Source: a virus
Virus record (IMG/VR): IMGVR_UViG_3300010354_000051
Location: 54,720-118,719 of that record
DNA: 64,000 bases
Reading direction: 5' to 3' (one strand)
The notes under the pieces were generated by a model. That model was given only the letters and a program-made list of their open reading frames with translations. It was not told where the DNA came from and did no database searches. This document shows, piece after piece, positions 24,866-63,774 of the stretch. Position 1 is the first letter of the stretch, and every line of letters begins with the position of its first letter. The position numbers were made by a program, and so were the translations under genes.

Positions 24866-27562
24866 TTAGAGGACCAGAGCCCAGTTTTTAAGTAGGGCAT
24901 TGGCCGTATCCAGGGTGCGGAAAGACAAGCTGCTGTTGGAGGCAGTGCTGGCGCAAGGTGTGCTTAGTGTTATGGATACGTTCGGGTTAATATTAGTAAT
25001 GTAGTTGGCATATCTGACCACTACTGTGCCGTTACTGCCAGTTAAATCTATAGCGGCTCCGTTCAAAGTAAGGGATATTTGGAATGTGTCGGCGGTTGAG
25101 TTAACAACGTAGTAAGGAGTCCAGGTACTGATGCCTGTCGTAGTACCTATTGATGAAAAACTGACCACGGTTCCGTTACTAAGACCGTGGCTGGTGTATG
25201 TAAGTGTATCGGCTGTTGTGCTAGAAGTAGCGGATATGCCAGTAGTTATACCGGTTCCAGTGCCAGAGTGTAAAATCATGCCAGTGCTGAGTCCGCTAGT
25301 ATCGCTAAGGCTTATAGTGCTAGATCTTAGTGTTAAGTTTGCTGTTTTAGTTGTTAATGTACCTACCCCATAATTACTCGCGATGGTGAGAGTTTGAGAA
25401 GTGGTTACGGTAGGCAAGTTAGAAAATACTTCTTCTAGAGCGGTTTTAGACAACCTGTTGCCTACTAAAGAGAAAGAAAAACGGAAATTTTTTGCTTGAA
25501 CTCTGCCATTAGAGTTACAGGTTAGGACAAAGTTTGTAAAGTTTGCGCTGGAGGAAACTGAAGTTACAACTAGAGCTGGGATAGAACTTAAAGATGTACA
25601 TCCGCTAAACATAGAGTTTACCGTAGTTACAGAAGAAGTATCTAGCAGAGGTACTGTTCTTAAGAATGAGCAGGCACTGAACATGCTAGCCATAGTGGTA
25701 ACTAGAGAAGTATTGAATAGGGGTACACCTCTTAGGCTTTGGCAGAAAGTGAACATATTATTCATAGCAGTAACCGCCGCAGTATTGAATAAAGGGACAG
25801 ATTGCAGCCGGTAACAGTTCTGGAACATGCTAGCCATAGAGGTTACCAAGGCTGTATTAAACAATGGTACGGATTCAATTTGAGTACAGCCAGAAAACAT
25901 GCTGGCCATGGTGGTGACTAAAGCCGTATTAAACGCTGGTATTGATTTCAAGGAATAGCAGGCGTTGAACATGGAAGACATGTTCGTTACCGATACTGTA
26001 TTTAATAACGGCACAGATTCTAATTTACCACACCCGCTGAATGTACTGGCCATAGTTGTGACCAAAGGAGTGTTCAAGGCAGGTATAGAGCGAATGGAAG
26101 AACATCCGGAAAATGTGCTAGCCATAGTGGTAACCAAAGAAGTATCTAGTTCTGGTAGTTCTAATAGGCTATTACAGTTCTGGAACATGCTAGACATATC
26201 AGTTACTTTTGAAGTGTTGAAACAAGGTATATAACTTAGCGATCTACAGCCCAAGAACATGCTAGCCATAGTAGTAACTTCAGTAGTATTGAAAAATGGG
26301 ACTGATCTCAGGGCAGTACAGCCATTAAACATACCACTCATATCCGTAACCAGACCCGTGTCAAAAAACGGGCAAGTGGTTAAGGAAGAACATGCTGCAA
26401 ACATATTCTTCATAGTTGTTACTTTGCCGGTTTTAAATTGTGGAACGTAAGACAGAGCTGACAGAACAGAGCTAGAGCAGTTAAACATGCCCTCCATTGT
26501 CGTGGCGTTTTGCGTATTGAATTCGGGCACTGTCACTAGTGAATAACAGTTAGCGAACATATTGCTGAAAATAACCCCAGATGAAGTATTATAAGCCGGA
26601 ACATATTTTAAAGGGGCACAGCCCGAGAACATAGATTGGAAATTAGTTACTGAAGACGTGTCAAAAAACGGTGCGTAATTGATCCCAGATACAAAAAACA
26701 TATAACTTACATCGGTAACATTTTGAGTGTTAGCTTCTATAGATACCGACCTTAAAGCCGGGCAATTCGCGAGTAAATAGGTGAAAGAGGTTATTGAACC
26801 CATAGATAATAGGTTTACCCTTTCTATATAAGTATGCCTTATAGCTCCTAAAGATAATGTATTGATACTAGGCCCGCTAATTGCTAAATCTAACCAGGAC
26901 GTTGTTCGGTTAGCAGCTAGAGTGTTAGACGGGTGAGTAGTGGTAAAATCAACAGAAGTTAAATTCTGTCCGGATTGTGGGGTGATAGTTACTGTTGCTA
27001 TTTTATAGGGGAGTAGGGAGGCTGAACCATTAGTGGAGAAGGTTATGACTGATCCGCCCTCTTCTAAAGAGATTTGAAATGAGCTAGAAGTTGAGTTTAC
27101 AACATAGTAGAATTGATCCTCTGTAATATATGTCGCTGTTACCAGTCGATAGAATCTTACTCTATCCCCATTAACATATCCATGCGACGCTCTCTGTACT
27201 GTACTGCCAGCACTATTAAATGTTACAGTAGCGTCATACAGATTAGCGCTATTAAAATTATATTCGTAGTCTCTTTGAACTCCGGCGGAGACGTTAGCCA
27301 CAGTCCCATCGCCTTGGTCAATTGTATAGTCTCCAGACACCAGGACCGAGAAAAAGTTCCCCAGGCCGGTAGTTCCGTCCCCTGGCAAAACAGCATAGAG
27401 TCCGGTTACGGTTTGAGAAGTAGGGTCTGGTTGAGTTAATACCGGCCAGGCCTGATTTCTAACCCAGGTATTCGTGGAGTCTATTGAGTAGACATAGTCT
27501 TCATAGCCTTTTCGTAGGTTTCTTGAATGTACTGTTAAGCCTTGAACATTCCTAGCGCTCAT
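24866..27562 (-). CDS. BspA-like (DUF285) repeat adhesin
   Basis: 898 residues. From ~280 to ~690 run about 16 copies of a 22-24-residue unit of the form 'T..M.SMF.GC..L.S.P.FNT.', for example VTTMASMFSGCTQIESVPLF. This is the DUF285 leucine-rich-like surface repeat found in BspA-type and Mycoplasma proteins, where it mediates adhesion. An N-terminal region (~110-180) and a C-terminal one (~770-850) carry related beta modules with HGYVNGDRVRFY and HGLSNGTVVSFS, plus YYVVNSTADTFQISL. These resemble FCCH-like modules. No signal peptide, as expected for a virion protein. It is very likely a receptor-binding protein (inference). Confidence 0.8.
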   Translation of the reverse strand: MSARNVQGLTVHSRNLRKGYEDYVYSIDSTNTWVRNQAWPVLTQPDPTSQTVTGLYAVLPGDGTTGLGNFFSVLVSGDYTIDQGDGTVANVSAGVQRDYEYNFNSANLYDATVTFNSAGSTVQRASHGYVNGDRVRFYRLVTATYITEDQFYYVVNSTSSSFQISLEEGGSVITFSTNGSASLLPYKIATVTITPQSGQNLTSVDFTTTHPSNTLAANRTTSWLDLAISGPSINTLSLGAIRHTYIERVNLLSMGSITSFTYLLANCPALRSVSIEANTQNVTDVSYMFFVSGINYAPFFDTSSVTNFQSMFSGCAPLKYVPAYNTSSGVIFSNMFANCYSLVTVPEFNTQNATTMEGMFNCSSSVLSALSYVPQFKTGKVTTMKNMFAACSSLTTCPFFDTGLVTDMSGMFNGCTALRSVPFFNTTEVTTMASMFLGCRSLSYIPCFNTSKVTDMSSMFQNCNSLLELPELDTSLVTTMASTFSGCSSIRSIPALNTPLVTTMASTFSGCGKLESVPLLNTVSVTNMSSMFNACYSLKSIPAFNTALVTTMASMFSGCTQIESVPLFNTALVTSMASMFQNCYRLQSVPLFNTAAVTAMNNMFTFCQSLRGVPLFNTSLVTTMASMFSACSFLRTVPLLDTSSVTTVNSMFSGCTSLSSIPALVVTSVSSSANFTNFVLTCNSNGRVQAKNFRFSFSLVGNRLSKTALEEVFSNLPTVTTSQTLTIASNYGVGTLTTKTANLTLRSSTISLSDTSGLSTGMILHSGTGTGITTGISATSSTTADTLTYTSHGLSNGTVVSFSSIGTTTGISTWTPYYVVNSTADTFQISLTLNGAAIDLTGSNGTVVVRYANYITNINPNVSITLSTPCASTASNSSLSFRTLDTANALLKNWALVL

Positions 27563-27889: not shown

Positions 27890-28285
27890 TTATGCCCCTA
27901 TGAGTAGGAATTGATTTAGTATGGCGTCGGCAAGACCTGGGCCGGTGGGTCCGATAGGCCCGGTGGCACCAGTTGCGCCAGCCCCTGTAGGTCCGATAGG
28001 CCCGGTAGCCCCAGTTGCACCCACTCCCGTAGGTCCGATAGGGCCTGTAGCCCCGGTTATTGACGGGCCAGTAGGTCCGATAGGTCCGGTAGCCCCAGTT
28101 ACACCTACTCCAGTAGCCCCGGCAGGCCCTGTCGGGCCGATTGAACCGACTCCAGTCGGGCCAGTAGCACCAATTAGGTATTCTACTTGGCTAACTCCAG
28201 TCGCACCTAGAAAGCAATTGCTCAGATCTCTGGATTTTCTGATCCCTCCACAACCAGGACCGCTTTTGGGGGAAAATTGACCCAT
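27890..28285 (-). CDS. Collagen-like Gly-X-Y repeat protein
   Basis: 131 residues. About residues 35-120 are nearly uninterrupted Gly-X-Y triplets with [10 protein letters not shown] repeats, the signature of a collagen triple helix. Phages use these as fibre stalks. The N-terminus has a short Cys-containing head ([11 protein letters not shown]), and the C-terminus is a 12-residue tail. The repeat gives a proline-rich antisense frame on the plus strand that should be ignored. It is the first gene after a late-promoter-like motif and leads the operon into the DUF285 adhesin. Confidence 0.8.
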
Positions 28286-52324: not shown

Positions 52325-52728
52325 TCCAATTTATGCCAATTCTTTCCATCATACCAAGAAATTAGGTCTTGAGAGTAGATATGAACAGTACCTACCGGAG
52401 TACCGGTCCTTTTAGACACGATTTTAGGGTCTTCAAACAACACACTTAACTTGTAATCCATGCCTCTTACCGAATTGCATAGCAGCTTGTCGACTTTTGA
52501 CAAGACCTCGTAGTAATAGTGGTAACTTTCTGCAACTAAATTAATGCTGTACACAGGCTCCAGACTTGAATCATCTGAAAACTGTCTGTGGGAGAGCATA
52601 TACCCACCAACCGAAGCATGATCTCTATAAACTTGTAAATTCTTCAGGTAAAGTACAATCTTTTTCTCTGAAGAAACAATCGCATTAACTAACTTTTTAC
52701 CCGAACAAGAACTCTCTGATGTACTCAT
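52321..52728 (-). CDS. Hypothetical protein between bilin reductase and Dam-like gene
   Basis: 135 residues from ATG 52728 (AAGGAG 7 bases upstream). Starts MSTSESSCSGKKLVNAIVSS and ends LISWYDGKNWHKLE. Mixed alpha/beta, Tyr-rich in the middle. I recognise no family. It overlaps the bilin reductase's 3' end by 32 bases and the next gene by an ATGA, so all three are co-expressed. A role linked to bilin or phycobiliprotein handling is possible from context only. Confidence 0.5.
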   Translation of the reverse strand: MSTSESSCSGKKLVNAIVSSEKKIVLYLKNLQVYRDHASVGGYMLSHRQFSDDSSLEPVYSINLVAESYHYYYEVLSKVDKLLCNSVRGMDYKLSVLFEDPKIVSKRTGTPVGTVHIYSQDLISWYDGKNWHKLE

Positions 52729-53320
52729 CTGCAAACTCCTTGCTGAAATACGCCTTCAGTATACCATGGGCCGGGTCGTTGGCGCCCATGTACTCGTTGT
52801 AAGGAGCGTGAAGAGTCCTGTAATCGCCACCTGAGGGCAAATTACCCCCTAACAAGCCGTAATACCGGTCAATATATCGCTCTGCTGCCTCTTTAAACGG
52901 CTCATATATCTCTTTTCCACCCCTCTCATGCCACATTTTGGGCGAAAAGAAGCCATTTAGGTCATAAAAAGCCGATTTTTCGACTTTTCGATCGGGCTCG
53001 GAGGACAAAGACTCCATCACCGGGCCTAAATTACCGCCTATTGGGTGAAAATCAATAACCGCGAGAGATTTTGATGGCAATTCGATGTATTCACAACCAA
53101 ATACGGGCAGTAATTGGCCTACACAAGGGTAAATCACAAGCGTTTCCGCCCTAAATTTACCCTTTGCCTCGAAAACACACGTCCTCGCCCTATAAAAACC
53201 CGCCGATTCACCGTTCCAAGCCTTTGAAATCAGCAAAGCAGGCGGATTTTCTTTCTTTTCGTAGTAGGTTAGGTCGGGTTCTGCCCTTTGGACGAGGGTA
53301 TCAATCCAGTTTTCCTGCAA
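52697..53320 (-). CDS. Ferredoxin-dependent bilin reductase (PcyA/PebS family)
   Basis: 207 residues with the family pattern: LVIYPCVGQLLPVFGCEYIE, then LAVIDFHPIGGN (Asp90 is the likely proton-donating Asp), FFSPKMWHERG, and the end AYFSKEFADEYIREFLFG, like 'FG.ewAeryir.vLFd'. These enzymes reduce biliverdin to phycobilins with electrons from ferredoxin; cyanophages carry PebS, PcyA and PcyX types. Product type cannot be set by eye. It is shorter than usual (~230-250). The start is TTG at 53320, supported by GGAG 7 bases upstream. No heme oxygenase gene is in the window. Confidence 0.85.
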   Translation of the reverse strand: MQENWIDTLVQRAEPDLTYYEKKENPPALLISKAWNGESAGFYRARTCVFEAKGKFRAETLVIYPCVGQLLPVFGCEYIELPSKSLAVIDFHPIGGNLGPVMESLSSEPDRKVEKSAFYDLNGFFSPKMWHERGGKEIYEPFKEAAERYIDRYYGLLGGNLPSGGDYRTLHAPYNEYMGANDPAHGILKAYFSKEFADEYIREFLFG

Positions 53321-56897: not shown

Positions 56898-58388
56898 ATG
56901 GCTAATCTAGAAGCGCTTTTAGTCGAAGCCAAAGACTCCACTACGAGCAGAGAAAGGCTCAGAGAGATTTGGGATATGACCAAGTCTTCTCGAGTTAGAA
57001 AAGCTATCAGCAGCAATCCTAATCTCGATGCGAAATTGCTGAAGTTGGCTTCGCGCCTCTACATCAAAGAGGTGGTTACCAACAGCTCGGTAGAACTGGT
57101 TCAGTTGTTTACCGAGGACGAATTCATGAAGAAGATCTACTATGCGTATAACGACCCAGCCAAATTCTTCTCCGAATTCAAGATCAGTAGACTACAGCAG
57201 GTCAGTAAAGTTGAGGATAGAGTGTGCCTGGCCAGAGCCATGCTCATTTCCCCTAAACTCAACAGTCCCACGTTGCTACTGATGATCAGTGGTGCGCTTA
57301 GTACACCTGAATTTACCAGGGAATTCAACATGAATCCTGAGGCGTTCGATCGAGCAAAAAAAATATGCTCGGAGAACGTAAAAGATTTTAATCTGGGCCA
57401 GATACTGAATTTCCAAGATCGCGGATTAATAGGGGAGGATAAAGCCCGAATCGGGGTTAAAAACTCTATAAAGCTGCACTCTTATCTGACCGATGGGACC
57501 TTTGTTAGCTTTTTCCAAAAGAGGTATGAGGGGTGGCTAAAAGGGTCGACCGCAGACTACTCCTATCTCCTGGAGTTTCTGCTGGCTGCTGCTTACAAAA
57601 ACTTGGAGAATCTGGCCAAGGTCAGCAAAAAGAACAAGTTTATTCTTGGAGATGATTGTCTAAAGCTTCTCTCTAATTTGTACAGAGACATGCTGTATGT
57701 AGAAGTAGCTGCAGGGAGAATAGGTTCAGGATCTAATTCTCCTTATTCTTGGATGCACTTTAGGAATCTGGGAAGCCAATCCAAATCCTACTCCCTGTCC
57801 GAGTTGATTTGGAAGATTATCTCGATACGGAACAAAATTACCAAAAGCAGTTCGGTAAAGGATTGGGATTTGGAGTCATTTTATTCCGATATTAAGATGA
57901 TTGGGTTTAACAAGGACATGGGTCCTTGGGGAGGGTATACAGTAATGACCAGTGTGGTAAACACCCCTGATAAATTAGAGGCTCTTTGTCAGAAGCTCAA
58001 CCTGCTTGATGACGAGTCATTAATTTTTTACCTGACAGCTAATCTGGTAAATAGAGAGTACTACTGTAGGAATTCTGGAGGAAGCGAGTATAGTAAGTTG
58101 GTTGACCGTATTAACTTACTCAATCAGCATTCTTTTGAAAAGAACTACGGGATTTTGTATAGGTATTCTAGCCTAGACTCTTATCCAACTTTCTGCTTAG
58201 ATAAGGCCCACCCGGCCATTAAAACCGGGTCGGAAAGGTACACTGTAAGGGGGCAAAAACCCCCCAAGTTGTTGCCTGTAGGCTCGGGCTTTATTAGCAA
58301 GGATGATTTGGGAGGCCTGGTCGGGTTAGAAACCGGACTTTCTTATCCAGAGTCAAAACGGCTGAAAGAAGTTCTATCTGAGCAATAG
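56898..58388 (+). CDS. Hypothetical helical repeat protein
   Basis: 496 residues from ATG 56898 (GAGGTAAG upstream). The N-terminal ~70 residues (LREIWDMTKSSRVRKAISSN; PNLDAKLLKLASRL) look like variant leucine-rich/HEAT-like helices of the 'LRV' type ('vr.ala.Np.lp...l..La'). The rest is a mostly helical globular protein with no recognised domain. Its last 15 bases overlap the convergent gene at 58374. Function unknown. Confidence 0.6.
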   Translation: MANLEALLVEAKDSTTSRERLREIWDMTKSSRVRKAISSNPNLDAKLLKLASRLYIKEVVTNSSVELVQLFTEDEFMKKIYYAYNDPAKFFSEFKISRLQQVSKVEDRVCLARAMLISPKLNSPTLLLMISGALSTPEFTREFNMNPEAFDRAKKICSENVKDFNLGQILNFQDRGLIGEDKARIGVKNSIKLHSYLTDGTFVSFFQKRYEGWLKGSTADYSYLLEFLLAAAYKNLENLAKVSKKNKFILGDDCLKLLSNLYRDMLYVEVAAGRIGSGSNSPYSWMHFRNLGSQSKSYSLSELIWKIISIRNKITKSSSVKDWDLESFYSDIKMIGFNKDMGPWGGYTVMTSVVNTPDKLEALCQKLNLLDDESLIFYLTANLVNREYYCRNSGGSEYSKLVDRINLLNQHSFEKNYGILYRYSSLDSYPTFCLDKAHPAIKTGSERYTVRGQKPPKLLPVGSGFISKDDLGGLVGLETGLSYPESKRLKEVLSEQ

Positions 58389-59483
58389 AGGCTGGTAAAA
58401 AGAGTCATACTCGCCCTTCTTGAGAGAGTTAAACCTTTCAAGAGGGGTTTTATGTTCGGCCTTCCAGGTAAAGAACACTGGAAGTCGATTCACCGTGCAG
58501 GTTTTTCTCAACAACTCTTTGGTCAGATTTTCTACTCCGCCCACCCGGCTCGCCCTCTCCATAAGAATCTTTACCACTTCAGTGTCCTTATACCCGTAGA
58601 TTTTTTTGCATACGTCCGCACAGTAATTTTCAGGGGAGGGCCTGGAAGCCTCTACAATGCGCTTGAAGCGGGTGGTCAGGGACAAGGACTCACGAGGCAG
58701 GTTCAAGGCTGCTTCCAGGCGATCACAGAGGCCGATCAGGAAGGATTTGCCATAAGCGGTTTCCAGAGTTTTACTGGGTTGGGATAGGAGGGAGACGAGG
58801 TCGTTCTCCGGCATGGCCTCGGCAAGCTTGTAACCTTTCTCCCACTGATCTAGTTTTTTTAGAACGGTGGAAGTTTTGGTCGGTCGGGTGTTGTTGGAGT
58901 TCCATCTCAGGCCCTGACTCAAGGCCTGGTTTACTCTTTGCTCAAGATCGGGCGGAGGAGCGGGAGCTGGGGATGAAGCCTGGCCGGAGATTATTCTGGC
59001 CGTAGACTGTGCTATACTTTTTACAGCCATGTGGGTATAGTCTTCTCCCTGGTGGTTTTCGCTATACTTAAGGACCGTGTCGCACATGGTCTGAACAGCC
59101 TGTACGGCAGAAGCCGTCTTATACGCTTCGAGTCTCCGATCTTCCTGCCTGCTGTGGTACTCGGCCAATAGCTGTATGCACTGAAGACTTCTCTGCTGGT
59201 CGCTAAGGTCATTCAGCAGGCTGAATCGGCGGTCGAGGTTTTTCTGGCAAGCGCTGAGCGTATCGGCCAATCTGCTCACGGCAAATTGCTGCGATTTAAC
59301 GGCCTGCAGCAGTTCCTGATCGGTCAGGAGGTGGGCTGGTATGGGCGTGGTCATCACCTGGCCCATGTATACCTCCCACTCCGGGCTAGAGACGACTTCC
59401 GGGCAGTGGAGAGGGTATTCGTTCATGGTTGTGTCTCGGCCCCCGAATTGTAGCAGGTCGAGGTGGGGAATTTTTTCGGCCAC
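58374..59483 (-). CDS. Hypothetical helical protein
   Basis: 369 residues from a GTG at 59483, or 350 from ATG 59426 (GGGGG lies 10-11 bases upstream of the latter). The N-terminal half is a long helical region (LLQAVKSQQFAVSRLADTLS; RSLQCIQLLAEYHSRQEDRR). A Pro-rich linker PAPAPPP is followed by a helical C-terminal half with VLKKLDQWEKGYKLAEAMPE. No known family. It lies just downstream of the repeat-rich region on the leftward side, so a link to replication or its control is a possibility only from position. Confidence 0.55.
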   Translation of the reverse strand: MAEKIPHLDLLQFGGRDTTMNEYPLHCPEVVSSPEWEVYMGQVMTTPIPAHLLTDQELLQAVKSQQFAVSRLADTLSACQKNLDRRFSLLNDLSDQQRSLQCIQLLAEYHSRQEDRRLEAYKTASAVQAVQTMCDTVLKYSENHQGEDYTHMAVKSIAQSTARIISGQASSPAPAPPPDLEQRVNQALSQGLRWNSNNTRPTKTSTVLKKLDQWEKGYKLAEAMPENDLVSLLSQPSKTLETAYGKSFLIGLCDRLEAALNLPRESLSLTTRFKRIVEASRPSPENYCADVCKKIYGYKDTEVVKILMERASRVGGVENLTKELLRKTCTVNRLPVFFTWKAEHKTPLERFNSLKKGEYDSFYQPLLLR

Positions 59484-59628
59484 CCAACTCTAAGCACATA
59501 CAGGCCTTATATACATTTACACTTACCCTTCGGGCACAAAAAAACAAAAGGTAAAATTATGAAATTTATGACGCTGTATATCTGGCGTGGAGTTGTGCCC
59601 ATTTCCGGTTTTGGCGAAAGGTAAACCC

Positions 59629-60020
59629 CTTGCAGCGCAAGGGTTCTCATTTTTGGACAGGTTTGAGACAACGAGATTGACCCCTATTCGGCCCTGTTTC
59701 AGACTGTTTTAGGGGGGGCCTAACTGTAGTTTTGAACTGTGAAATTTATGGAAAAATCGCCCAAATTTGTGGTCGTTTTTGAAAACTACACTTAGGCCTA
59801 TTCGCTGAAACTCGTTGCGCTGCAAGGGATTACAAGGAATACCACAAAAATACCACAAAAACCGAAAATACAGTTAGGCCCTAGCTGCTTTTTCCATAAT
59901 TCCCTGAGATCGCTTCCAGCGCAAGGGATCTGAGCAAAAAACACCTAGGCCTGCGAAAATACAGTTAGGCCTATCGAAAATACAGTTAGGCCCCTAAACC
60001 CATTGCGCTGCAAGGGTTCT
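59629..60020. repeat. Four TTGC-3-GCAA boxes followed by GGGWTYT
   Basis: Boxes: CCTTGCAGCGCAAGGGTTCTC at ~59629, GTTGCGCTGCAAGGGATT at ~59814, TTCCAGCGCAAGGGATCTGA at ~59914, ATTGCGCTGCAAGGGTTCTC at ~60002. The 11-base core TTGCAGCGCAA appears in both orientations while the flank GGGttct stays in one orientation. Confidence 0.65.
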
Positions 60021-60164
60021 CAGAAACTACAGCCAGGCCCCCCTCGAACCAAATTTATGGCTGGAAAATACAGTTAGGCCCCCTGACCGCCATACTTTAT
60101 GGCTGGAAAATACAGTTAGGCCCCCTGACCGCCATACTTTATGGCTGGAAAATACAGTTAGGCC
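59864..60164 (+). repeat. Six copies of GAAAATACAGTTAGGCC
   Basis: Exact 17-base copies at 59864, 59955, 59976, 60064, 60106 and 60148. Related: an inverted GGCCTAACTGTAGTTTT at ~59718 and direct variants GAAAACTACACTTAGGCC at ~59781 and GAAACTACAGCCAGGCC at ~60022. The spacing varies: 91, 21, 88, 42, 42. Confidence 0.85.
60054..60164 (+). repeat. 42-base tandem repeat, 2.6 copies
   Basis: Units at 60054-60095 and 60096-60137 are identical and start TTTATGGCTG; a partial third runs 60138-60164. Each unit contains one 17-base GAAAATACAGTTAGGCC box. Confidence 0.85.
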
Positions 60165-60167
60165 TCT

Positions 60168-60425
60168 TCAAAAAACCTTGTGCCCTTCAAACAAAACCCT
60201 CAATCTGGCATGCTCGGCAAGCCCTTCTACCCCCATCGTGTTCAAAATATCAACAGCCTCTTTCTCATCCATCCACGACATAATTCCATATACCCCCCTC
60301 AGAGCCAAATAAAAAATCCTGTAGTTTCCTCCTACTGTCCGGGTTCCAGAGACCACAATTCGCACCCCGTATTCCACTTCTAAAGTGTTTCTTGTGCTCA
60401 GGGGAAGCCAGGGTTCTTCTAACAT
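60168..60425 (-). CDS. Small cluster protein, last of nine leftward genes
   Basis: 85 residues, MLEEPWLPLSTRNTLEVEYG. The middle is hydrophobic (GGNYRIFYLALRGVYGIMSW) and the end carries the cluster's shared motif as NTMGVEGLAEHARLRVLFEG ('G...l...l...vLF'). Its ATG overlaps the upstream stop (TAAATG). The unit runs toward the repeat region. Function unknown. Confidence 0.55.
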   Translation of the reverse strand: MLEEPWLPLSTRNTLEVEYGVRIVVSGTRTVGGNYRIFYLALRGVYGIMSWMDEKEAVDILNTMGVEGLAEHARLRVLFEGHKVF

Positions 60426-60622
60426 TTAAACAACACCGTTGTTCTTATAATTTCAACTGCTACTTCTGTCGTACAGCCGGATAGTTCGCTAATCCTCACT
60501 TTGTCCCATTCCCACCAGTCAAAGCAGAAAAAGAAATACTCCTCATCCCAACCGGAGTCTTCTATAACCTTACCTTCGTACAACAGGTCTTCGAACTTAG
60601 ATTTGTTGAATTTGCTAGCCAT
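60419..60622 (-). CDS. Small cluster protein
   Basis: 67 residues from ATG 60622, which overlaps the TAA of the preceding gene. It is acidic-aromatic (DEEYFFFCFDWWEWDKVRIS) with the short end-motif GCTTEVAVEIIRTTVLF, the cluster's G...v..Ei...vLF signature. No membrane segment. An upstream TTG/ATG would give a longer form but would run deep into the neighbour. Confidence 0.55.
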   Translation of the reverse strand: MASKFNKSKFEDLLYEGKVIEDSGWDEEYFFFCFDWWEWDKVRISELSGCTTEVAVEIIRTTVLFKC

Positions 60623-60623
60623 A

Positions 60624-60881
60624 TTAATCCGTCTCAAACAGAAATTGATATAGAAGGGTTTGAGCGCAGCATTCTGCCGATCCGGCTCTAAGCATTTCCT
60701 CATACATGTAATAAACAGTGCTATATAGACATGTAGAAGTTGCTAAGTGGGTTATTTTTACACAACAAACACGCGAGTAGCTTATCTCAGCACGTATACC
60801 AACTTCAGCTAAAGCCGGAACTAGCTCTACTTTCAAGATCTGACAGAGTTTTTCAAACTCGCCATCGTACTGCGACTGCAT
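60624..60881 (-). CDS. Small cluster protein
   Basis: 85 residues from ATG 60881, just after the previous stop (a GTG at 60923 would add 14). It has VELVPALAEVGIRAEISYSR and Cys-rich VCCVKITHLATSTCLYSTVY, ending GSAECCAQTLLYQFLFETD. This matches the cluster's C-terminal 'G...l...ll..Fl F' pattern. Role unknown. Confidence 0.55.
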   Translation of the reverse strand: MQSQYDGEFEKLCQILKVELVPALAEVGIRAEISYSRVCCVKITHLATSTCLYSTVYYMYEEMLRAGSAECCAQTLLYQFLFETD

Positions 60882-60883
60882 GC

Positions 60884-61222
60884 TCAAAAGCTCATCTCCA
60901 AAATCACTACTTGCAGAATACACTTCTCTTGAGTCAGATCATGTCTTCTTTCAGCAAGATATATCAAGTCAGACTTTGGGAGTATGCAGAGCTGAGGTGA
61001 AAAAGTTAGCACGGTCCAAGCCTCACACAAAATATGGTCGATAGATTTATTTTCGTAAGCCTTTCTATCCAGCACTTTTACGGGAGTTGTTGAGTGATAG
61101 TATGTACTATCACCCTCTAACCAAAAGATAAAATGGTCGCTGGTCACACCAAGCCTCAGGCCGTATTTTTTCTGGGCTGCTGACCTGAGCCTACGGGTTC
61201 TGAAAAGTCGGTCGAAGATCAC
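60884..61222 (-). CDS. Small cluster protein
   Basis: 112 residues from GTG 61222, overlapping the upstream TGA (GTGA); a TTG at 61240 is possible. The N-terminal half is basic (MIFDRLFRTRRLRSAAQKKY), followed by a strand pair (GVTSDHFIFWLEGDSTYYHS) and the motif SIDHILCEAWTVLTFSPQLC. The latter two elements recur in the gene at 62217 as LLFWIDGKG and NEVHTLLVFSPA. Paralogue of that family. No transmembrane helix. Confidence 0.6.
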   Translation of the reverse strand: MIFDRLFRTRRLRSAAQKKYGLRLGVTSDHFIFWLEGDSTYYHSTTPVKVLDRKAYENKSIDHILCEAWTVLTFSPQLCILPKSDLIYLAERRHDLTQEKCILQVVILEMSF

Positions 61223-61716
61223 AGGGCCAGAGCTAGACAAAGCAAGCCTAGCACGGAAACCAGGCAGTAGAAGGGCAGGTGGTTGCGAGGCATGATCACC
61301 CGGTAAATGTTACTACCCTGATTTCCAAAAACCACTTCGAGCAACAAATCGTTATAAACAGCATTGACTCCTCGCCTCCTAACAGACCTGATCAGTTTCT
61401 TCCTATCCTCCTGGTATACCGGATTCTCCCTATCTGTTATAAAAACACTATGTCGGCAATCTGTCAGCTTCAAGTTATGTTTTCTGAATCTCCACCCTAA
61501 GAGAATTAGATAAATAGAAGGCCTGTTACCTAAAGAGTACAGTAATGACTCACGGCATATACTAATAAAGAGTATTACTAACATTAAGAAAAGTTTGATC
61601 AGGTTGTAGGCTATAATACCGAACGCTATAAGAGTAGAAACTAATACATATAAAAGGCCGACTAAAAAAAGTACAAAGAGGATTAGTAACCCTATAGGGG
61701 TGAGAAATTCAAGCAT
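61219..61716 (-). CDS. Small cluster protein with three membrane segments
   Basis: 165 residues. One or two hydrophobic helices occupy residues 5-55 (LLILFVLFLVGLLYVLVSTL), then a soluble centre with SVFITDRENPVYQ and RRRGVNAVYNDLLLEVVFG (the shared motif), then a C-terminal membrane helix (CLVSVLGLLCLALAL). The soluble part probably faces the cytoplasm if both ends are in the membrane. Paralogue of its neighbours by the shared RG(V)xAV...E/D..vF motif. Confidence 0.6.
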   Translation of the reverse strand: MLEFLTPIGLLILFVLFLVGLLYVLVSTLIAFGIIAYNLIKLFLMLVILFISICRESLLYSLGNRPSIYLILLGWRFRKHNLKLTDCRHSVFITDRENPVYQEDRKKLIRSVRRRGVNAVYNDLLLEVVFGNQGSNIYRVIMPRNHLPFYCLVSVLGLLCLALAL

Positions 61717-61722
61717 GGCTAG

Positions 61723-62220
61723 TTACCTCACCTGTTTAATAATTGTTTTCACTACATAAAAGGCATTTGCAGTGTGTAAGAGCATTGCTAGTGCGAATAC
61801 GCAGGCTAGTGCTAAGTATTTAGCATGGATAAGATTCCATGAGTTGAGTGAAACCATCGTCAAATTAAATATGGCAAACCAGACTTTGTCGTAATCCAAA
61901 TAGCCTGTAATCCCTGCGTTTGAGTAGACAAGAAACAGCTCGTAGTAGTCGATTTCTTCCGTACCCGCATCAAACTCCAGGCAGGTTTTTATCTCGGCTA
62001 GTAATCCGCTAGCACCTGACGTTTGTATTTTCCTCCTCACAAACTGGTCATCCAGTCGGAACTGCCTGTTTACACCATGTGTTCTATAAAATGCAAGTGA
62101 AGATTTGAACTTGTTTGGGCAGTACCAAAAACAATAAGTGTTGCTGACTAAGGCCTTATACATCCTAACTCGGCCAAACCACCTAAAATAAGCATAAAGC
62201 AGCAGGTCTCTAACTATCAT
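61723..62220 (-). CDS. Small cluster protein, membrane-anchored
   Basis: 165 residues from ATG 62220, which overlaps the upstream TGA (ATGA); a longer upstream start is unlikely. LLLYAYFRWFGRVRMYKALV, CFWYCPNKFKSS and LLAEIKTCLEFDAGTEEID parallel the gene at 63253 (VVYAYFRFVYGVRIARM, YMWYEPNRLIS, ASEITTLLHFELDVG). Two or three membrane helices follow (LACVFALAMLLHTANAFYVV). Clear paralogue of the 63253 gene. Confidence 0.7.
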   Translation of the reverse strand: MIVRDLLLYAYFRWFGRVRMYKALVSNTYCFWYCPNKFKSSLAFYRTHGVNRQFRLDDQFVRRKIQTSGASGLLAEIKTCLEFDAGTEEIDYYELFLVYSNAGITGYLDYDKVWFAIFNLTMVSLNSWNLIHAKYLALACVFALAMLLHTANAFYVVKTIIKQVR

Positions 62221-62723
62221 TTCTTTTTCAGAATAAAGCCCGTACAAAATGCTACCGCAAACGCGATTCCCCACCCTATGCAAAGAGATACCAAAGCCCT
62301 GATGAAAGTTTCCCAACCAAAAATAATAAACAAAGCACCCATCAATAATCCAATCCACATTGAATCAAACATTAACGGGTAAGATTGAACAATTTTTATA
62401 TCCGGGCTCACTACCTCATGCTCTTCAAAGACAGCCGGAGAGAACACCAGCAGAGTGTGAACTTCGTTCAGAACAGAATTCAACCCGCGACTTTTTGCAG
62501 CCGCTTTGAGGCCCGCTAATCTAACTGATCTATACCCGATGCAATTTCTAATTCTTTCTCTTATATTCTGTCCTCTCTTCCTCCCTTTGCCATCAATCCA
62601 AAACAGAAGATTCTTCTCCCCATCTACAATTATTTCCCTTACACGAACTTTCTTACCCAGCATAAAGAGAGCGGACCGGATAAAAAGAATTTCCGGCAGT
62701 AGCGGTGAAGAGTTAGTTGACAT
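62217..62723 (-). CDS. Small cluster protein, membrane-anchored
   Basis: 168 residues from ATG 62723. An N-terminal helix precedes KKVRVREIIVDG, LLFWIDGKGRKRGQN, a basic stretch, the motif SRGLNSVLNEVHTLLVFSPA, and two C-terminal membrane helices (MWIGLLMGALFIIFGW; WGIAFAVAFCTGFILKKK). Same order as the neighbours. The stop overlaps the next gene's ATG. Function unknown. Confidence 0.65.
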   Translation of the reverse strand: MSTNSSPLLPEILFIRSALFMLGKKVRVREIIVDGEKNLLFWIDGKGRKRGQNIRERIRNCIGYRSVRLAGLKAAAKSRGLNSVLNEVHTLLVFSPAVFEEHEVVSPDIKIVQSYPLMFDSMWIGLLMGALFIIFGWETFIRALVSLCIGWGIAFAVAFCTGFILKKK

Positions 62724-63015
62724 TTTCAAAAGATAGTCGAAGGATAATGCACTGAAGTAGGTAATCTAACAAAACTTCACGACCTTTTTCGTTTAAAATG
62801 CGGACCAAATCATTATGGTCAAGTTTGTTTAACCATTTGCGTATACCAAACTTCTTCCAGAGGGAATAGTGATCGTATTCATCCAGATCACAAACAGTAC
62901 GATTGATATAAGATATACGACGGTATTCTTCGCAATGTACAAACACTTCAAACGCTGCTATCTCCCCTCTCTCTGTTAAATAATAAGACAAGTTCGTTTC
63001 TTCGTTAATCATCAT
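62713..63015 (-). CDS. Small cluster protein
   Basis: 100 residues from ATG 63015, with CCGGAG as Shine-Dalgarno; an in-frame ATG follows at the next codon. It is acidic and Tyr-rich, with EIAAFEVFVHCEEYRRISYI and DEYDHYSLWKKFGIRKWLNK. The end (EKGREVLLDYLLQCIILRLSFE) carries a version of the cluster motif. No clear membrane helix. Overlaps the next gene by 11 bases. Confidence 0.55.
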   Translation of the reverse strand: MMINEETNLSYYLTERGEIAAFEVFVHCEEYRRISYINRTVCDLDEYDHYSLWKKFGIRKWLNKLDHNDLVRILNEKGREVLLDYLLQCIILRLSFENVN

Positions 63016-63204
63016 TCCCACTCCGGGATAAGAAAAGCAGAGACGGCCTTGCTGCCCATCAGCTCAGTGCCGACTAACAAAGCATGATACGCACTGAACG
63101 CCATCACCTCGATACACTTGAATGATGTACAGACTCGGTAGGGTAGAAGCTCGGCCATCAGAGCTAACCAAGAACAACCCAATCATTCTACCACAATTCG
63201 GACC

Positions 63205-63247
63205 CTGGGGCGGGCGGAGTCCGCCCCAGCCCCTCCCGTTAGGGAGG
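63205..63247 (-). terminator. Paired GC-rich hairpins downstream of the 63253 gene
   Basis: CTGGGGCGG-GCGGAGT-CCGCCCCAG (63205-63229) and CCTCCC-GTTA-GGGAGG (63232-63247) stand just after the leftward gene's stop. There is no T-run, so factor-independent termination is unsure. They may also protect the mRNA end. The rest of 63022-63252 holds no gene I can support. Confidence 0.5.
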
Positions 63248-63252
63248 ACAAG

Positions 63253-63774
63253 TCAAATGTACCAGGGATGCCTAAATCTTAACTGTACTATTATACGAAC
63301 AATCGTTTTCGCCCCGTACACATAGGCTAAGAACCCTAGTGGCAATATAAGACCAGGGACAACATATATTACAGGTATTACTGAGATTACACCTATACAC
63401 CTTAGTAATACCGACCATACCTGGCCAATTTCGTAAAGGTTAATTCTAGCCTTTAAAGTCATAACAGTAGTTTTCCTGTTGACGGAACCAACATCAAGCT
63501 CAAAATGCAAAAGGGTCGTTATTTCACTTGCCACAGCTTTAATCCCCCTTTCTCTTACCTGTTCCCAAAAGCTTATCTCACCAGTAACATAATAAGCGAA
63601 ATCACCTTCTCCCTCAAGGGATCTCTCTGCGCTGATTAGCCTGTTAGGCTCGTACCACATATATAAGACATTAGTATCATACCCTTCCCCTACCATACGG
63701 GCTATCCTAACACCATAAACGAATCTGAAGTAAGCATAGACAACCATCAGTTTAACAAGCTTCATGTCAGCCAA
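63253..63774 (-). CDS. Cluster protein with C-terminal membrane segments
   Basis: About 173 residues from TTG 63774 (170 from ATG 63765); GGAGG lies 3 bases before the TTG and 12 before the ATG, so the start is open. It has VVYAYFRFVYGVRIARM, YMWYEPNRLIS and RERGIKAVASEITTLLHFEL, then two or three membrane helices (IPVIYVVPGLILPLGFLAYV). It is the paralogue of the gene at 61723 and the first of the leftward cluster. A TATAAT box lies at 63876-63881 on the same strand. Confidence 0.65.
   Translation of the reverse strand: MADMKLVKLMVVYAYFRFVYGVRIARMVGEGYDTNVLYMWYEPNRLISAERSLEGEGDFAYYVTGEISFWEQVRERGIKAVASEITTLLHFELDVGSVNRKTTVMTLKARINLYEIGQVWSVLLRCIGVISVIPVIYVVPGLILPLGFLAYVYGAKTIVRIIVQLRFRHPWYI

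Follow-up and report, generated by a model that had tools for sequence, protein, structure and literature searches.

A gene-free repeat region upstream of an orphan gene as a candidate replication origin of a TIM5-like cyanophage

What is the function of a dense set of short repeats in a part of a phage genome that encodes no protein? The question is raised by the region 59427-60167 of the DNA analysed here (the window), a stretch of 64,000 nucleotides that covers 54720-118719 of a virus record of 118,719 bases. Judged from its genes, the window is derived from a TIM5-like cyanophage, which is present as a fragment. Its DNA polymerase belongs to the mitochondrial gamma type (Pfam DNApol_Exo), with 55.7% identity to the polymerase of Synechococcus phage S-TIM5 (genus Aurunvirus). 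Among the other products of the window are a topoisomerase subunit, a protein that resembles a primase-helicase, and a ferredoxin-dependent bilin reductase (52697-53320; Pfam Fe_bilin_red, E = 3e-19). The window also encodes a BspA-like protein made of repeating 'NTSxVTxMxSMFxxC' units (24866-27562) and a collagen-like protein with GPTG repeats (27890-28285). Between positions 58000 and 62000 there is no DNA similarity to isolated phages.

The region is 741 bases long and contains no open reading frame of 60 or more amino acids. Repeated 11-mers span 316 of the 741 bases, compared with 3.6 ± 9.2 (maximum 48) in dinucleotide shuffles, and the repetitiveness of the region ranks first of 1161 sliding windows in the 118.7-kb contig. 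The initial annotation was therefore correct in describing the region as repeat-rich, gene-free and unlike the rest of the window. The strand switch that it had placed at the repeats lies elsewhere: both flanking genes are on the minus strand, and the real switch (58374/58388) is 1 kb away. To the right of the repeats, the genes 60168-60425, 60419-60703 and onward are all on the minus strand. They belong to a row of small genes (60168-63774), several of which are apparently paralogous to each other; the members tested have no match in Pfam.

Three classes of short motifs are found in the region. The box A family has 11 members, and the six exact copies of GAAAATACAGTTAGGCC reported initially are all present on the plus strand, at 59864-59880, 59955-59971, 59976-59992 (21 nt past the preceding box), 60064-60080, 60106-60122 and 60148-60164. 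The inverted copy and the variants described with them were also found. The former is the near-copy AAAACTACAGTTAGGCC on the minus strand (59717-59733), and the latter are AAAACTACACTTAGGCC (59782-59798), CAAAAAACACCTAGGCC (59935-59951) and GAAACTACAGCCAGGCC (60023-60039) on the plus strand and GAAAAAGCAGCTAGGGC (59878-59894) on the minus strand, the last being of a type shared with a second locus described below. The 42-nt tandem repeat occupies 60054-60179 on the plus strand and consists of two exact copies and a partial one (71%), with one box A per copy. When up to two mismatches are allowed, TACAGTTAGGCC occurs 13 times in the window, compared with 4.84 occurrences expected, and nine of the 13 are in the repeat region.

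Box B is a palindrome with the core TTGCnnnGCAA. Four such boxes had been counted, of which three are exact: CCCTTGCAGCGCAAGGG (59627-59643, with the core at 59630) and two copies of TTGCGCTGCAA (59815-59825 and 60003-60013). The fourth, TTCCAGCGCAA (about 59914-59924), is imperfect. The exact core occurs three times in the whole 118.7-kb contig, every time inside the region. Box C, TTTTCCATA, is present at 59747-59755 on the minus strand and at 59890-59898 on the plus strand, and these are two of its three copies in the contig. It differs by one base from TTTTCCACA, the consensus of the cyanobacterial DnaA box (PMC4674748), and the exact consensus is absent from the repeat region of the window. 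DNA stability in the region is lowest over 80 bp (59505-59584; 69% AT, 99.2th percentile of the contig), which lie between the array and the gene to its left and represent a candidate unwinding segment. A search for sigma-70-like promoters in the repeat region of the window found none. A structured RNA was considered and dropped because all the Rfam matches of the region were sub-threshold chance matches.

The gene to the left of the repeats (58374-59426, minus strand) encodes an orphan protein of 350 amino acids, called P1 here, which is a candidate box-binding initiator or regulator. Its paralogue and its homologues in related phages also lie beside repeats. Alignment to a homologue makes the ATG at 59426 a more likely start of P1 than the GTG at 59483, and the gene-free stretch is thus taken to begin at 59427. 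The array is then positioned about 290-470 nt upstream of the P1 start.

The association of the boxes with the P1 family is not limited to this locus. By profile search, the contig has two genes of the P1 family (E = 5.7e-188 and 2.9e-154) and no third, and a scan of the whole contig found exactly two box clusters, each upstream of one of these genes. The chance of each cluster preceding a P1-family gene is about 2e-4. The second cluster contains five boxes (31.25-31.37 kb of the contig) and is directly upstream of the P1 paralogue, which is 26% identical to P1 across 330 residues (E = 3e-25). No box scoring as high is present in the 118.7 kb outside the two P1-family loci. A search for GAAAATACAGTTAGGCC elsewhere, as the initial annotation had advised, found no scattered identical repeats at unrelated sites of the contig, the only other cluster being the one that precedes the paralogue.

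Searches with P1 and its homologues gave no Pfam, PHROG, PDB sequence or PDB fold match and no relation to a Rep or initiator family (Rep, O, RepA_N). Neither P1 nor its C-terminal part resembles a PDB structure in fold searches, neither an HTH-type fold nor a winged-helix Rep family was recognised in P1, and its sole fold match is the homologue in S-TIM5. The AlphaFold model of P1 (mean pLDDT 67) consists of helices throughout and has a long coiled coil at residues 36-124; for the C-terminal part, a model based on a relative has a pLDDT of 78. P1 has a basic pI of 8.5 and its homologue in S-TIM5 an acidic one of 5.0, and charge thus gives no obvious case for DNA binding by P1.

The gene that follows P1 (56892-58388, plus strand) is convergent to it and conserved, being a homologue of S-TIM5 gp004 (E = 1e-25). 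Searches for further close relatives of P1 and of this neighbour found a single IMG/VR contig, L031, which carries one exact 17-mer of the window and is independently the nearest relative by its topoisomerase. The other two of the three exact 17-mer matches in IMG/VR (L013 and L014) are single copies in unrelated contigs and were set aside. The topoisomerases of L031 and the window are about 60% identical and the P1 proteins 45% identical. Upstream of its P1 homologue, L031 has nine boxes, eight with the core TACACGAAGG in place of the window core TACAGTTAGG and one exact GAAAATACAGTTAGGCC. The boxes run head to tail in places, every 20-21 nt, and the divergent box order is common to L031, the window and the second locus. 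The palindrome TTGCGCTGCAA is confined to the P1-upstream region in both genomes (three of three copies in the contig and three of three in L031), as are all four L031 copies of TTTTCCATA; TTTTCCATAAA is present in four copies in the L031 region. In the 18-kb L031 locus, too, the least stable 80 bp (100th percentile) are located between the array and P1, and the single perfect DnaA box TTTTCCACA of L031 lies inside them, in the P1-upstream region. The layout is therefore conserved while the letters have changed.

Comparison of the 25 boxes of the three arrays (window, second locus and L031) reveals 7-8 invariant positions, comprising an A-run, CA and AGG. Such a pattern looks like that of a protein which touches the DNA sequence-specifically at three points, together spanning about one helical turn. 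In the three arrays, most gaps between boxes on the same strand measure 20-21 or 41-43 nt. A Rayleigh test for a period of 10.5-10.6 nt gives a p of about 1e-4, but the gaps are non-independent through tandem duplications, to which part of the regular spacing is due, and gaps of 47, 71, 74 and 128 nt do not fit.

The arrangement of genes extends to cultured phages. In S-TIM5, S-TIM54, S-TIM61 and S-TIM66, a P1 homologue, the convergent gene and the topoisomerase follow each other in the same order. A repeat-rich region is present upstream of P1 in these phages too, but its repeats are unrelated to those of the window. A AAAATGKGACAGGGG-type repeat occurs five times in the S-TIM5 region, with one further, weak copy in 172 kb, and the S-TIM54 region has a 98-nt unit, broken up by runs of N. 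Between S-TIM5 and S-TIM54, 187 nt on one flank are 92% identical and the repeat core has no similarity. The topoisomerases of the two phages are 97.6% identical, compared with 61% for P1 and 60.5% for the convergent gene. The divergence of P1 thus appears to go along with that of the repeats; the convergent gene behaves likewise, so that this is not unique to P1. Perfect DnaA boxes are concentrated in the P1-upstream regions of S-TIM5, L031 and two further relatives, L023 and L026. Of the four TTTTCCACA boxes in the 172 kb of S-TIM5, two fall within the 847 nt that precede the P1 homologue (P = 1.4e-4), and the single one of L026 lies in its P1-upstream region. In two relatives (L022:2-352 and L027:2-391), a small gene (YIIIKDGLGKFGITKK...) is found directly upstream of P1, at the expected place of the repeats. 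Its product has a likeness to GIY-YIG-type nucleases, as judged by eye; the L027 copy has no Pfam or PHROG match.

Iteron-type origins combine iterons in helical phase with an AT-rich unwinding element and DnaA sites (PMC5043065). The repeats with their partly helical spacing, the opposite copies on the side of the gene, the melting segment, the DnaA-type boxes and the linked gene favor the interpretation that the repeat region is an origin of this kind. We consider it somewhat probable that the region is the iteron-type replication origin of the TIM5-like cyanophage, with P1 as the candidate initiator. The region would work like an iteron origin, and it is called iteron-like, and not assigned to the class outright, because P1 matches no known initiator and because we infer both P1 binding and origin activity.

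It is possible to describe how such an origin might function. P1 would bind to box A (RAAAMTACASNNAGGCCCC), whose tandem copies are about two helical turns apart. The host DnaA would assist, and another protein might possibly act at the palindromes as well. The AT-rich segment nearby would then melt, allowing the phage primase-helicase and the gamma-type polymerase to be loaded. The boxes in the opposite orientation, which are located on the P1 side of the array (and, in the case of the paralogue, across the start codon), could serve in the autoregulation of the adjacent gene.

GC skew, whether plain or calculated for third codon positions by strand, has no replication-type pattern in the contig or in S-TIM5. 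As such skew is found nowhere in these genomes, the missing skew switch at the repeats is uninformative. Two other sources of the repeats were considered. A plasmid-derived origin was rejected because the region has no match in plasmids. A host repeat element was rejected as well: the palindrome CCCTTGCGCTGCAAGGG is scattered in unrelated bacteria, with no cyanobacterial concentration among the matches listed.

An iteron-like origin, a packaging site and a multi-operator region were the main options of the initial annotation. The first is the best supported of these, and the multi-operator region retains some support. In that case, P1 and its paralogue would be transcription regulators which, bound to box A, govern both their own genes and the adjacent array of small genes, and the region would not be an origin. 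The second cluster is what would be expected of such regulators: one of its boxes overlaps the first ATG of the paralogue, and the cluster is positioned between divergent tail-gene transcription units. It contains neither palindromes, DnaA-like boxes nor an AT-rich segment, which means that boxes alone need not signify an origin. The link between boxes and P1 family may thus be regulatory at the second locus, and the origin function, if real, would need the full set of elements present in the window. Promoter-like sites are found in S-TIM5, where TTGACA-N16-TAACAT on the plus strand and, inside the P1-upstream region, a perfect TTGACA-N17-TATAAT on the minus strand face each other upstream of the array (L015:95-200), so that overlapping opposite transcripts are possible. 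The P1 array of the window, however, lies well upstream of P1 and not across a promoter, in a region where no sigma-70-like promoter was recognised. Furthermore, nine to eleven sites, three motif classes and a melting segment are more than an autoregulatory operator needs, and P1 has no recognisable HTH-type fold. A purely regulatory function of the window's repeats is therefore rather unlikely.

The repeats could also mark a packaging site or a physical end of the genome, with P1 resembling a small terminase and the boxes being its recognition sites. Small terminases have a coiled coil, as does the P1 model. The records of S-TIM5, S-TIM54, S-TIM61 and S-TIM66 and eight of ten metagenomic contigs end 0-850 nt upstream of P1, and three IMG/VR contigs begin at GGCGCCCCGCGACG. 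This shared start, however, is the outer edge of an inverted repeat of S-TIM5, in which nt 1-90 are an exact inverted copy of 161,513-161,602 (L015:1-90; L035:11513-11643, equivalent to 161,513-161,643 of the record). An assembly break would largely explain the shared start, other ends are at different positions, and the published linear S-TIM5 record may itself be broken at the inverted repeat. In L023, L026, L031 and the window, the sequence continues straight through the region. In the contig, about 73 kb separate P1 from the terminase large subunit gene (about 40.1-41.2 kb, L011:106-1185, with the boxes at 114.4-114.9 kb), and in S-TIM5 about 60 kb of the record lie between that gene and the P1 homologue. 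A role in packaging is improbable. The notion that the repeats are functionless, either selfish or produced by recombination, for example at an inversion hot spot, is in keeping with the wholesale swap of the array core between S-TIM5 and S-TIM54 and with the inverted repeat and the inverted ~5.5-kb segment adjoining the array (the latter contains a Dda-like helicase, at about 166.5-172.4 kb of S-TIM5, and is inverted relative to S-TIM54 and S-TIM61; L017, L019 and L190), but it is very improbable, as at least seven invariant positions in three diverged arrays and in both orientations, the preserved layout and the confinement upstream of P1-family genes are hard to explain without selection.

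The candidate origin can be compared to known systems. It shares with the iteron-type theta origins of plasmids F, P1, RK2 and R6K the tandem direct repeats of 17-22 nt, which may be in helical phase, the copies in opposite orientation towards the gene, the AT-rich segment, an adjacent gene linked to the repeats and, in the relatives, DnaA-type boxes. It differs in that the phage P1 protein is no recognisable Rep, that the replicon is a large lytic-type phage and that the spacing is only partly regular. The lambdoid O origins, such as ori-lambda, similarly have several iterons and an AT-rich tract, with a phage gene adjoining or containing the array. The repeats of the window, however, are upstream of the gene and not within it, and its boxes are asymmetric, whereas those of lambda are inverted repeats to which O binds as a dimer. 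P1 was unrelated to O in every search made. The gene-free region upstream of S-TIM5 gp003, which is not annotated as an origin, has the homologous gene, the synteny, gene-free repeats and DnaA or DnaA-like boxes in common with the window. The order of repeat region, P1, convergent gene and topoisomerase is thus common to the window and the TIM5-like cyanophages, but the repeat sequences (AAAATGKGACAGGGG type in S-TIM5, 98-nt unit in S-TIM54) are unrelated.

No description of an origin or initiator of the gamma-polymerase (TIM5-like) cyanophages was found in the openly accessible papers that were searched, although an earlier mention may exist. What appears new here is an iteron-like array with an orphan, helical and co-diverging partner protein in these phages. 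The finding gives a precise candidate origin for a lineage that has cultured members (S-TIM5 on Synechococcus WH 8102). Near relatives differ by exchange of the repeat core, and P1 has diverged in parallel, which suggests that the repeats and P1 form a specificity module under fast turnover. More tentatively, and with more doubt than confidence, P1 might be the founder of a new phage initiator family, unrelated to the known Reps and co-evolving with a rapidly exchanged iteron array. The specificity of replication would then lie with the box-P1 cassette, in analogy to incompatibility in plasmids, and the cassette of boxes and paralogue would act as a second origin or as a decoy.
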